Part shown: positions 2,485 to 6,506 of the stretch, piece by piece
How positions within the stretch are numbered: position 1 is the stretch's first letter
Layout: every line of letters begins with the position of its first letter
Source: Deltaproteobacteria bacterium
GTDB taxonomy: Bacteria > UBA10199 > 2-02-FULL-44-16
Length of the DNA stretch: 11,070 nucleotides
Reading direction: 5' to 3'
Assembly: GCA_016203825.1 (NCBI GenBank)
Contig: JACQMA010000004.1
Span: 1-11,070, forward strand
Program-made: the position numbers and the translations under genes
Notes under the pieces: model-generated
The model's input: only the letters and a program-made list of their open reading frames with translations
The model's database searches: none
Told to the model about the DNA's origin: nothing

Positions 2485-4311
2485 ATGTGCGGGATCGTTG
2501 GATATATTGGTCAAAAGCCAGCCACACCTCTTCTCATTGAGGGGCTTCGTCGTCTTGAATACCGCGGGTATGACTCTGCCGGCATTGCGGTGATCGGCGG
2601 TGACGGTGTCCAGATTCAGCGGGCGGAAGGGAAACTTGCGCAGCTGGAATTGCTCCTGCGCGATCATCCCATCACCGGTGTAACGGGTATCGGTCACACA
2701 CGCTGGGCGACGCACGGGAAGCCTTCAGAGACCAACGCGCATCCGCATCGCTGTCAAAATGTCGTCGTGGTTCACAATGGGATTATCGAAAATCATGATG
2801 AGTTGAGAATTGACCTCGAAGGTGAGGGACATCAGTTTGAATCCGACACCGACACCGAAGTTGTGTGTCACCTCATCTATGCGTATCTCAAAAAAGGTTG
2901 CGATACGCTTTTAGCCATTCGCAAAACCCTTCACGACATTCGTGGCTCGTATGCCCTGGCGATCCTCAATGTCGATGAACCGACGCACCTCTATGTCGCC
3001 CGCCGAGGTGGTCCGCTGGTTGTCGGTTTTAATGGTGGCGACGCAATCGTGGCGTCCGATGTGACGCCGATCTTGCCGCATACGCGTCGCATGGTCTTTC
3101 TGGAAGATGGTGATTTCGGACGCGTGAGTGCCACGGGTCTCGAACTTTTTGATATGGAAGGAACTCTCCTCACGCGACCCTTTCAGTCCATTCCCTGGAA
3201 TCCGATCCAAGCCGAGCGCGGTGGCTACAAGCACTTCATGCTCAAGGAAATTTTTGAACAACCTCAGGTGATCGAAGATGCCCTGACCGGTCGTTTGAGT
3301 CGTGGTCGTGTCACGGTCAAAGAGCTTCAGGAAGTGTGTGGGGGCGATGATTTTCCTTTCGACGATATCACCATTCTTGCGTGTGGAACGTCGTATCACT
3401 CAGGGCTCATCGGGAAATATATTATCGAAGCCCTCGCGGGTGTTCGCGTGACGGTCGACCTCGCGAGTGAATTTCGCTATCGTGATACGATCACGTCCGA
3501 ACGAAGTCTCGTGATTCCCATCACGCAATCCGGTGAAACCGCCGATACGATTGCTGCGACGCAGCTTATGAAAGATCGGGGACAAAAGGTCTTGGCGATT
3601 TGCAACGCGATCGGCAGTACGATCACGCGGCTCGCGGATGCCACGATGCTGACGCATGCCGGACCCGAAATTGGTGTCGCGTCGACAAAGGCCTTTACGA
3701 CGCAGCTCGTGGTTCTTTATCTCTTTGCCCTCGATATCGGTCAGCGTCGTGGAAAGCTGAACGCAGATGTCGTGGTGAAGCATGTGAAAGAGTTGCGGCG
3801 TTTGCCGCGCCAAATTCAGGACTTGTTGGAACATGGGAAACGCTTGCAGCCCCTCGCACGGGAGCTCGCTGAGGCCGATCATGCCCTCTACATCGGCCGC
3901 GGCCTTCATTATCCCGTGGCCCTCGAAGGGGCGCTGAAACTGAAGGAAATCTCGTATCTTCATGCCGAGGGTTTTGCCGGCGGAGAACTCAAGCATGGTC
4001 CGATTGCCCTGATCGATGAAGGAACCCCTGTGATCGCCATGGCGCTGAAGGATGCGGTGTACGAAAAGATGCTTTCGAATATCGAAGAAGTTCGCGCCCG
4101 CGGGGCGAATGTCCTGGCGCTGGTCACCGAGGGCGATGAAACCCTTCGCGCCAAGGTTCATCACGTGATTGAAATTCCCGAGACGAATCCTTATCTTGCC
4201 GCGGTCCTCGCCTCGATTCCTTTGCAGCTCCTTGCTTATTATGTTGCTGATCACAAAGGGACGGATGTTGATCAGCCACGCAATCTCGCCAAAAGTGTCA
4301 CCGTTGAATAA
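2485..4311 (+). CDS. glmS: GlmS: glutamine-fructose-6-phosphate aminotransferase (isomerizing)
   Basis: GlmS transfers the amide nitrogen of glutamine to fructose-6-phosphate to make glucosamine-6-phosphate, the first committed step to UDP-GlcNAc. The product is 608 residues, essentially the E. coli length. The N-terminal class II amidotransferase domain begins MCGIVGYIG, with the nucleophilic Cys2 exposed after Met removal, and has RRLEYRGYDSAGIAV, HTRWATHGKPSE and VVVHNGIIENH. Two SIS domains follow: ACGTSYHSG, ITQSGETADT and GVASTKAFTTQ in the first, and YIGRGLHYPVALEGALKLKEI and GGELKHGPIALI in the second. The C-terminus, DVDQPRNLAKSVTVE, is the family ending that channels ammonia. The start lies 3 nt after the glmU stop, with the purine-rich 3' end of glmU (AGAAGGG, 2471-2477) as a likely ribosome site. 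There is no leader long enough for a glmS ribozyme. Its stop overlaps the next start by one base (TAATG). Confidence 0.98.
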   Translation: MCGIVGYIGQKPATPLLIEGLRRLEYRGYDSAGIAVIGGDGVQIQRAEGKLAQLELLLRDHPITGVTGIGHTRWATHGKPSETNAHPHRCQNVVVVHNGIIENHDELRIDLEGEGHQFESDTDTEVVCHLIYAYLKKGCDTLLAIRKTLHDIRGSYALAILNVDEPTHLYVARRGGPLVVGFNGGDAIVASDVTPILPHTRRMVFLEDGDFGRVSATGLELFDMEGTLLTRPFQSIPWNPIQAERGGYKHFMLKEIFEQPQVIEDALTGRLSRGRVTVKELQEVCGGDDFPFDDITILACGTSYHSGLIGKYIIEALAGVRVTVDLASEFRYRDTITSERSLVIPITQSGETADTIAATQLMKDRGQKVLAICNAIGSTITRLADATMLTHAGPEIGVASTKAFTTQLVVLYLFALDIGQRRGKLNADVVVKHVKELRRLPRQIQDLLEHGKRLQPLARELAEADHALYIGRGLHYPVALEGALKLKEISYLHAEGFAGGELKHGPIALIDEGTPVIAMALKDAVYEKMLSNIEEVRARGANVLALVTEGDETLRAKVHHVIEIPETNPYLAAVLASIPLQLLAYYVADHKGTDVDQPRNLAKSVTVE

Positions 4312-6506
4312 TGGAATTGAATCCCCAACAGCAAGAAGCCGTTGAGCACGGCGGTGGGCCACTCTTGGTCTTGGCCGGTGCCGGCAGTGGCAAGACGCGG
4401 GTGCTCACATCGCGGATTGCGCGTCTCGTCGTCGAACAGCAGGTTCCCGCCTCTTCCATTCTTGCAGTCACCTTCACCAATAAAGCCGCCGACGAAATGC
4501 GACGCCGTCTCGAGTCACTCATCGGTCCCAAGGCCCGCGAACTTGCGCTCGGAACATTTCATGCCATCTGCCTTCGCATCCTCCGTCGTCACGGTGAGGC
4601 CGTGGGGCTCGGTCCCCATTTTACGGTCTATGATGATGACGATCAACGTGCGTTGTTGAAACAGTGTGTTGAACTCTTGGGACTTCCCGAAAAACGTTTT
4701 CCGATTTCATCGCTCCTCGATCGTATTTCACGCGCGAAGGATCAATGCCTTGATCCGCAGGCGTTTGCTGCAGAGTCGCATGATTTTTACCTGACTCGGG
4801 TCGCCGAGGTGTATGCCCTCTATCAACGCCGCCTCCTCGAAGTTCAGGCTGCGGACTACGGTGACCTCATTCGCCTCGTGGTCACCCTCTTCGAGCGCAC
4901 ACCGGCGATTCTCCACGCACATCGCGAACGCTGGCAGCACCTGTTGGTCGACGAATACCAGGACACGAATCATGCCCAGTATCGACTCCTGAAATTCCTT
5001 GCCGATGGGCATCGGAATCTCATGGTGGTCGGCGACCCCGATCAATCGATCTACGCCTGGCGCGGAGCGGACGTTTCGAACATCCTTCGGTTCGAGCAGG
5101 ATTTTCCTGGAGCTAAAGTGGTTCGACTCGAGCAGAATTACCGATCGACGAAGACGATCCTTGCGGCGGCGCAAGGTGTGGTCGAGCAAAATGCGAGACG
5201 AAAACCCAAGACGTTGTGGACGGATAACGCTGATGGCGATCGCATCGAAGCGATCGTGGCCGCCACGGAGCGCGAAGAAGCGAACGAGATCCTCGGTCGC
5301 ATTCGTGCCTTCGCTACGACGGGAAAGCGTTTCGATCAGGTCGCCATTTTTTACCGGACGAACGCGCAGTCGCGACCGTTCGAAGAAGTCTTTCGCGCCG
5401 AAGGGATTCCGTATCGCATCTATGGCGGCATTCGTTTTTATCAGCGCGCCGAGATCAAAGACATCATCGCCTACCTTCGGCTTGTGGCGGATCAGCGCGA
5501 CGACATGGCATTTCTGCGGATCATTAATACTCCAACGCGGGGGTTGGGGAAGGGGACGATCGACAAACTCGTTTCATTCGCGCGCAGCAGAAATGAAGGT
5601 ATCTTCGCCGCCCTCGCGCATTTTGTGACGTCGGATCATGTGCGACCGACGCAAGCGAAGCAGCTGAGCGTCTTTGCAGTGATGATCACTGAACTTGCCG
5701 TCACGGCCCACACACGACCGCTTGCGGATTTGCTTCACGACGTCCTGGAACGAAGTGGGTACATCCAGGCTCTGGTCGACGAAGGAACGATCGAGGCCGA
5801 GGGTCGCATCGAAAATATCAACGAGTTGGTGTCCGCGGTTGAAGAATTTATTGTCGAAGAAGAAGGATCGACGCTCCAGGCTTTCTTGGATCAAGTGGCG
5901 CTCATCTCTGCGTCCGACGAAGTCCAAGGTGATCAGGGCGCGGTGACGCTCATGACACTTCACCTTGCCAAGGGATTGGAATTTCCGTTCGTCGCGATCG
6001 TCGGGATGGAGGAGGGGCTCCTTCCCCACGCGCGCTCGCTCGACAACCCCGATGCGCTCGAAGAAGAGCGGCGGCTGTGTTACGTCGGGATGACGCGCGC
6101 CAAGGAACGTTTGGTCGTGGGCTATGCTCGCCGTCGCCAAATTTTTGGCCAGACGCGCTACAGTGTCCCGTCACGATTTCTCGATGAAATTCCAGTACAT
6201 CTTGTAAGTGGTATGTCATTGCGAGGAGCAGAGCGACGAAGCAATCTCCTGGAAACACGTGATGCAGGAGATCGCCACGTCCATGCTGGGCTCGCGATGA
6301 CAACGGGTGATGATTTCGACCAACGCTCTCCCGACGAACAACCACTTCCCTTCCCGATCGGAGCGCGCGTCCATCACCCGACGTTTGGCCGCGGCATCAT
6401 TCGTAAGTGCGAACGCTCTTCTACCGGCCACAAGGTCATCGTCCAATTCGACAACGGGCATCTCAAACGCCTGATTGCTGAGTATGCGGGATTGATACCG
6501 TTATAA
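4311..6506 (+). CDS. UvrD/PcrA-type ATP-dependent 3'-5' DNA helicase (SF1A) with an in-frame palindromic-element insertion
   Basis: SF1A helicases of this group unwind DNA in nucleotide-excision and mismatch repair and strip recombinase from DNA. The 731-residue product has all core motifs: Q motif NPQQQEAV, Walker A GAGSGKTR (Lys28), Ia TFTNKAADEM, Walker B VDEYQDTNHAQ (Asp214-Glu215), III GDPDQSIYAWRGAD, IV EQNYRST, the UvrD C-terminal blocks AIFYRTNAQSR and INTPTRGLG, V TLHLAKGLEF with EEGLLPH, and VI EEERRLCYVGMTRAKERL. The last 50 residues (IGARVHHPTFGRGII to the end) match the Tudor-like RNA-polymerase-binding tail of PcrA/UvrD. Residues about 635-664 are encoded by a palindromic repeat, which suggests a late insertion in the linker before this tail. 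Start ATG 4311 shares one base with the glmS stop, so translation is probably coupled. Whether it is the uvrD or the pcrA orthologue, or a paralogue, cannot be settled from one window. The 3' end overlaps the opposing receiver gene by 6 bp. Confidence 0.95.
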   Translation: MELNPQQQEAVEHGGGPLLVLAGAGSGKTRVLTSRIARLVVEQQVPASSILAVTFTNKAADEMRRRLESLIGPKARELALGTFHAICLRILRRHGEAVGLGPHFTVYDDDDQRALLKQCVELLGLPEKRFPISSLLDRISRAKDQCLDPQAFAAESHDFYLTRVAEVYALYQRRLLEVQAADYGDLIRLVVTLFERTPAILHAHRERWQHLLVDEYQDTNHAQYRLLKFLADGHRNLMVVGDPDQSIYAWRGADVSNILRFEQDFPGAKVVRLEQNYRSTKTILAAAQGVVEQNARRKPKTLWTDNADGDRIEAIVAATEREEANEILGRIRAFATTGKRFDQVAIFYRTNAQSRPFEEVFRAEGIPYRIYGGIRFYQRAEIKDIIAYLRLVADQRDDMAFLRIINTPTRGLGKGTIDKLVSFARSRNEGIFAALAHFVTSDHVRPTQAKQLSVFAVMITELAVTAHTRPLADLLHDVLERSGYIQALVDEGTIEAEGRIENINELVSAVEEFIVEEEGSTLQAFLDQVALISASDEVQGDQGAVTLMTLHLAKGLEFPFVAIVGMEEGLLPHARSLDNPDALEEERRLCYVGMTRAKERLVVGYARRRQIFGQTRYSVPSRFLDEIPVHLVSGMSLRGAERRSNLLETRDAGDRHVHAGLAMTTGDDFDQRSPDEQPLPFPIGARVHHPTFGRGIIRKCERSSTGHKVIVQFDNGHLKRLIAEYAGLIPL
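6215..6301. repeat. Imperfect palindromic interspersed element inside the helicase gene
   Basis: Two 37-nt arms, 6215-6251 and 6265-6301, are inverted copies matching at 25 of 37 positions by hand alignment. They surround a 13-nt loop (6252-6264). Pairing is strongest at the two ends: the outer 11 nt (gtcattgcgag against ctcgcgatgac, one mismatch) and the inner 8 nt (atctcctg against caggagat). The motif 'cattgcgagg...gaagcaatctc' is the hallmark of short palindromic elements scattered through many bacterial genomes; their spurious translations read like SLRGAERRSN or EERSDEAI. The element is read in frame with the helicase, has no stop and is a multiple of three (87 nt). No target-site duplication is obvious, and I see no second copy in this window. 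Confidence 0.82.

Follow-up and report, generated by a model that had tools for sequence, protein, structure and literature searches.

A REP-like palindromic dimer lies in frame in the UvrD helicase linker of an uncultured bacterial class and recurs there

Why does an imperfect palindrome lie inside the reading frame of a DNA-repair helicase, and is it a stray repeat that the protein tolerates or a part that it needs? The locus lies in a window of 11,070 nucleotides, the whole stretch of DNA analysed here, which is contig C205 of a 1.1-Mb draft genome (G000; 230 contigs, 84% complete). Translation, Pfam and PDB alignment identify an uvrD/pcrA helicase frame of 731 residues plus stop (4311..6506, forward strand), with the Pfam domains UvrD-helicase at residues 3-266 and UvrD_C at residues 271-607. 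The sequence VGMTRA (residues 592-597; 6084..6101, forward strand), which falls in invariant or near-invariant columns of the orthologue alignment, is what we take to be helicase motif VI. A Tudor-like C-terminal domain covers residues 683-726 (6357..6488, forward strand); its PcrA_UvrD_tudor match of 19 bits is under the Pfam cut-off of 23.9, and the domain is kept in orthologues. The alignment of the helicase core to PcrA (1pjr), upstream of the insert, stops at residue 640. An Rfam match to the P10 sRNA of Pseudomonas in the Tudor-coding part (6349-6404; 20.7 vs 37 bits, E 0.013) was set aside as probably due to chance. In PcrA, the stretch preceding the Tudor domain is described as natively disordered and poorly conserved in a portion of PMC5397179.

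The palindrome occupies 87 bp (6215..6301) with the ends GTCAT...ATGAC, flanked by T (6214) and A (6302), the neighbours usual for such copies. Comparison of its two halves resolved a left half-unit, TGTC-ATTGC...GCAAT-CTCC (6215..6251, forward strand), and an inverted right half-unit, TGTC-ATCGC...GCGAT-CTCC (6265..6301, reverse strand), identical at 26 of 38 positions. The 37-nt arms, separated by a 13-nt loop, form 25 of 37 possible Watson-Crick pairs, the highest count for this geometry anywhere in the window; mononucleotide shuffling of its entire length, repeated 20 times, gave no more than 22. Predicted RNA folding of 6200-6316 gave -46.1 kcal/mol (z -3.54), a value equalled or bettered by none of 200 dinucleotide shuffles. 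Codons 635-664, which contain the element (MSLRGAERRSNLLETRDAGDRHVHAGLAMT; 6213..6302, forward strand), continue the helicase frame without a stop and add about 30 residues between UvrD_C and the Tudor-like tail. Pairing counts, translation, Pfam and folding thus bear out a reading made earlier from the sequence only, which had proposed an 87-bp palindrome with arms and loop of these lengths, stop-free in uvrD between motif VI and the tail and able to fold into an RNA hairpin. The insert is presumably translated, and peptides within residues 635-664 would include SNLLETR and the junction peptide HVHAGLAMTTGDDFDQR.

The palindrome had also been proposed to be a dispersed repeat. BLAST of G000 returned 12 places including the window copy, to which the longer copies are ~76-87% identical, and a covariance model built on 23 element copies placed full-length dimers at all of at least 11 distinct places including the window's, one of them weak (150 of 560 candidates scored). 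Two extra half-units, on C207 and C179, were found by BLAST only. Among relatives, 23 of 60 genomes had element matches, with at most 15 candidates scored per genome. A repeat family is thereby established at the level of DNA, and the outcome that would have spoken against it, a palindrome with no other copy in its host genome, did not materialise. Of 78 exact-ended copies (GTCAT..ATGAC), 69 are preceded by T and followed by A; flanking direct repeats of 2-8 bp are not in excess over shuffled pairs. A MITE with target-site duplication was rejected for lack of such an excess in the 78 copies. Y1 transposase (Y1_Tnp) was not found in the 84% complete G000; it is present in 48 of 60 relatives and absent from G036 despite many element candidates there. 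With no Y1_Tnp in G000 or G036, RAYT as the mobiliser is unsupported, and a RAYT-mobilised GTAG-type REP was likewise rejected, the tag here being TGTC. In G023, seven copies (L225, L226, L228, L229, L230, L232 and L233) share flanks, ACCCATTGTTAT before and AG.GTG.GTAGT after, so that the palindrome is there the core of a longer repeat.

Further copies lie in frame in other genes of G000. One precedes the PF03167 domain of a uracil-DNA glycosylase (UDG), and another separates the TPR-like stretch of an N-acetylmuramoyl-L-alanine amidase from its amidase domain. Lnt carries a half-unit within its N-terminal membrane part. Six of the seven UDG orthologues aligned (nine found) are free of an element in the linker site of G000, and the UDG of G023 carries its own copy in the same linker in another frame (47.7 bits). 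A glycosylase of G033 has a copy before its UDG domain; in G006, a copy stands at the very start of the UDG frame and may be outside the protein. No element was present in the six amidase orthologues aligned, from 11 genomes with matches. For Lnt, where 11 genomes had matches and eight orthologues were aligned, six have no insert at the site and that of G002 does not cover it. The same Lnt loop in G001 holds a different palindrome (TGTC, an 8-bp stem, a 4-nt loop and a CTC tail), similar sequences to which occur at other G001 loci examined, and in the Lnt of G023 a copy lies at another site, in between the two domains.

Several inserts can share one frame. The methionine synthase of G033 contains three copies in frame, and the squalene-hopene cyclase of G023 (L222) also contains three, with a weaker fourth close to where its frame begins. 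Aligned to PDB relatives, the synthase shows a gap or break at each of its three inserts and the cyclase at two; the remaining cyclase insert is outside the aligned part. The cyclase frame also holds the short stretches ALSGVEGS and AHPEPVEGPAG, which to us look like further repeat families. Copies were also seen between the lipoyl and E3-binding domains of an E2 acyltransferase in G021 and beside the receiver domain of hybrid kinases in G001 and G010. The copy on C124 of G000 lies in a 314-residue frame that has no Pfam match and no clear orthologue in 11 genomes, and its intragenic status therefore rests on the open frame; weak matches appeared in two of the 11, that of G001 consisting of element copies and that of G023 being a carotenoid-type protein with inserts of its own. 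The half-copy on C207 lies in a 920-residue frame with coding-like flanks and no Pfam match. Two G000 copies stand directly upstream of genes, rsmG (L003, on C222) and a lipoprotein-like gene (L010, on C160), and the ATG in their terminal GCGATGACA could serve as a start codon.

How often copies lie in genes was scored from their flanks. Of 104 copies from eight genomes, 21 lie in frames that stay open between two flanks that both look coding: G000 3/12, G001 2/17, G023 7/25, G033 7/17, G012 0/15, G036 0/6, G021 1/9 and G010 1/3, with the G001 loci L163 and L166 probably being one gene on two contigs. This set leaves out seven weak places, six from the search of relatives and one from the covariance-model search of G000. 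The remaining 83 copies were not scored intragenic and count against the reading of the family given below. The copies outside G000 are the best matches to the element of the window (15 candidates scored per genome), so that the intragenic share carries the bias of a sample chosen by similarity. The UDG copy of G000 falls just below the flank threshold and the Lnt half-copy was unscorable near a contig end; both are placed in genes by homology. Where both 150-nt flanks scored as coding on one strand at a threshold of 0.05, 26 of 29 copies were in frame, 23 of them open and three with a stop, and three were out of frame, against one third in frame expected without selection. At a threshold of 0.1 there were 15 open, three in frame with a stop and two out of frame (n=20), and at 0.15 the counts were 10, one and one (n=12). 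The bias towards the frame is, like the in-frame position itself, a result at the level of sequence.

In UvrD itself, none of the other eight genomes compared of the order (nine in total) has the element, and the other outcome that would have spoken against the sequence-only reading, an ordinary conserved linker shared by relatives, was not seen either. The nearest UvrD is ~60% identical to that of the window, so that no clean empty site can be read, and since the linkers of the order vary in length and sequence, the insertion is marked solely by the DNA of the element. Across the class, linker DNA was covered in 39 of the 46 genomes searched (G000-G045). The element family occupies the linker in four of these (G000 96.2 bits, G036 67.5, G012 50.9, G010 23.1) and is missing from 35; the G010 copy is nested and weak (E 0.008), yet legible in DNA. 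The dispersed in-frame insert of the sequence-only reading withstood the comparison, and it is not an isolated case, given the occupied linkers of G036, G012 and, weakly, G010. The four genomes belong to families f1, f5 (both G010 and G036) and f7. The G000 copy precedes the FDQ motif, and those of G010 and G036 follow F(N/D)Q at a similar position and in the same SLR frame. Because they have frame and position in common, these two may be one event, in which case the recurrence amounts to two events besides the window; G021, of the genus of G010, has no element in UvrD. A rough hand estimate, indicative only, from ~935 first-look candidates in 46 genomes, one quarter intragenic and an assumed ~1,900 genes per genome, gives ~0.1 UvrD matches expected in 39 genomes vs three seen besides the window.

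The linker was also surveyed in protein sequences. At least 212 distinct UvrD-type proteins were collected (the best 120 of each of two protein searches) and 205 linkers were parsed. The element-peptide pattern matched six: the window, G036 (P0121), P0022, P0040, P0013 and P0026. The inserts of P0022 and P0040 read in the VIAR frame; the matches in P0013 and P0026 were judged false. At the protein level, other linkers contain peptides of the RGND/SRESGN type (P0033, P0051) or CHPERSEGS...PQDD (P0025), which we take to be other repeat families. Other repeats apparently also land repeatedly in the same linkers.

We consider it very probable that a REP-like dimer was inserted in the UvrD linker, is tolerated with the frame kept, and belongs to a family that recurs in permissive linkers. 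Two TGTC-tagged half-units joined head to head, similar to CGTC REPs and to RPE-4/RPE-6 of Rickettsia, and dispersed through the genome would have inserted into the disordered linker between helicase core and Tudor domain. With the frame left open and a linker that has no fixed sequence, the helicase would keep working, and for that reason the insertion would not be purged. The family would land repeatedly in a few permissive linkers or loops of the class, such as those of UvrD, UDG and Lnt, and mainly frame-preserving insertions would remain visible. For its host, the UvrD insert would then be close to neutral.

Alternatively, the insert could have been recruited for a function, either as a hairpin in the mRNA, slowing translation ahead of the Tudor tail, or as a peptide that tunes the binding of RNA polymerase. 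The stable fold, the position just before the tail and the repeated occupation of this linker by one family are all consistent with such a role. The insert differs in reading frame and in position relative to FDQ among genomes, however, most class linkers do without the family, and the element is also found in unrelated proteins, which makes recruitment improbable. The same spread over proteins and frames makes a dedicated role for the hairpin unlikely.

Little probability attaches to vertical inheritance, by which one ancient palindrome in the uvrD of the class ancestor was kept, shifted or lost. The agreement of the two f5 genomes in position and SLR frame is what such descent would leave, but the G000 copy stands on the other side of FDQ, P0022 and P0040 use the VIAR frame, and the congener G021 and the other eight members of the order have no insert. 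That the assembler wrongly joined two contigs inside uvrD at a repeat, as repeats in a 230-contig draft can cause, is hardly credible: both flanks align in frame to one orthologue (the core upstream, FDQR and the Tudor tail downstream), the longer copies in G000 share only ~76-87% identity with that of the window, and the same pattern is seen again in other genomes.

Taking the insert as a tolerated REP-like dimer, we compared it with known palindromic elements as described in parts of the cited papers. CGTC REPs (Di Nocera et al. 2013, PMC3733652, in part) have an unpaired CGTC tag at one end, often in the form TGTC or CCTC, an 8-9-bp stem starting with complementary A-T, a 4-5-nt loop and a 3-nt tail that is mostly CCA; they predominantly form head-to-head dimers and have no dedicated transposase. 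Set against this description, not against a consensus sequence, the window dimer has TGTC at both ends, a stem starting A-T and head-to-head units with the tags outside; single half-units occur too (C207, C179), and some copies are in frame in genes, that of UvrD included. It differs in a stem of 5 bp that is then bulged instead of a continuous 8-9 bp, in a tail that reads CTC(C) where CCA is usual, and in having no clean 4-5-nt loop. As stem, loop and tail depart from the description though tag, A-T start and dimer agree with it, we describe the element as CGTC-REP-like without assigning it to that superfamily.

Rickettsia palindromic elements (RPEs) are, in the sections of PMC3767692, PMC2229807 and PMC10969869 used here, similarly ATGAC-rich palindromes lying in frame in exposed or linker regions of conserved genes, and insertion of this type was found in uvrD, UDG, amidase and Lnt of G000. 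The likeness is one of description: RPEs belong to another lineage and measure 105-146 bp (PMC2229807, in part) vs 87 bp here. Parts of PMC3733652 equate RPE-6 and RPE-4 with CGTC-1 and CGTC-4. Wolbachia palindromic elements (WPEs) are also stop-free in-frame inserts, in the DNA recombination genes addA, addB and priA (PMC4224334, in part), and CGTC-4 repeats of Wolbachia are given as unrelated to WPEs in a portion of PMC3733652. The ERIC, NEMIS and RUP MITEs resemble the element as ~100-bp non-autonomous hairpins, some fused in frame to genes, but several have target-site duplications (PMC2229807, in part), none of which were found in the 78 exact-ended copies here.

The phenomenon is known in kind. 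As outlined in parts of PMC3733652, coding palindromes were known from Rickettsia and Wolbachia before they were reported, as REPs, from many species, in frame in repair genes including the UvrD/REP helicase. The earlier suggestion of an RPE-like palindrome outside Rickettsia is right about the manner of insertion, and the case is not the first of its kind. The same portions report that the recB genes of two Xanthomonas species carry different REPs at nearly one site, and that REPs in other genes of its category are at differing sites. What is new is the lineage, the divergent unit and the repeated landing of the family in the same linkers; the literature searched (subscription papers, preprints and supplements excluded) reported neither this element nor a hot spot for insertion in the UvrD linker. 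A REP-like coding palindrome with a divergent unit is here placed in an uncultured class, the named relatives of which carry the label Deltaproteobacteria in their sources. The same linkers are occupied in different genomes, the Lnt loop carrying one palindrome in G000 and another in G001.

Whether conserved proteins of the class (UvrD, UDG and Lnt, and kinases beside the receiver domain) have flexible linkers that are recurrent landing sites for several unrelated palindrome families seems to us an even bet. If they are, much of the linker evolution in the class would be capture of selfish DNA, and some enzymes, such as methionine synthase and hopene cyclase, would carry several inserts at once. 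For RPEs in orthologues, the choice between one old event and hot spots is left open in the part of PMC3767692 drawn on, and the class offers a place to test the two for in-frame palindromes. Natural protein pairs with and without an insert would also make the cost of such peptides measurable.

The UvrD sequences showed further features in passing. Four linkers (L018, L020, L023 and L026) are built of short motifs in a tandem-like order, such as GAGTCCC and GAACGAAGAACC, and the uvrD of G038 (L025/L295) has an in-frame TAA inside the tail match. Eight UvrD homologues of ~1,090-1,150 residues (P0011, P0041, P0042, P0046, P0079, P0191, P0211 and P0212) match PF14890, presumably an intein-splicing domain.
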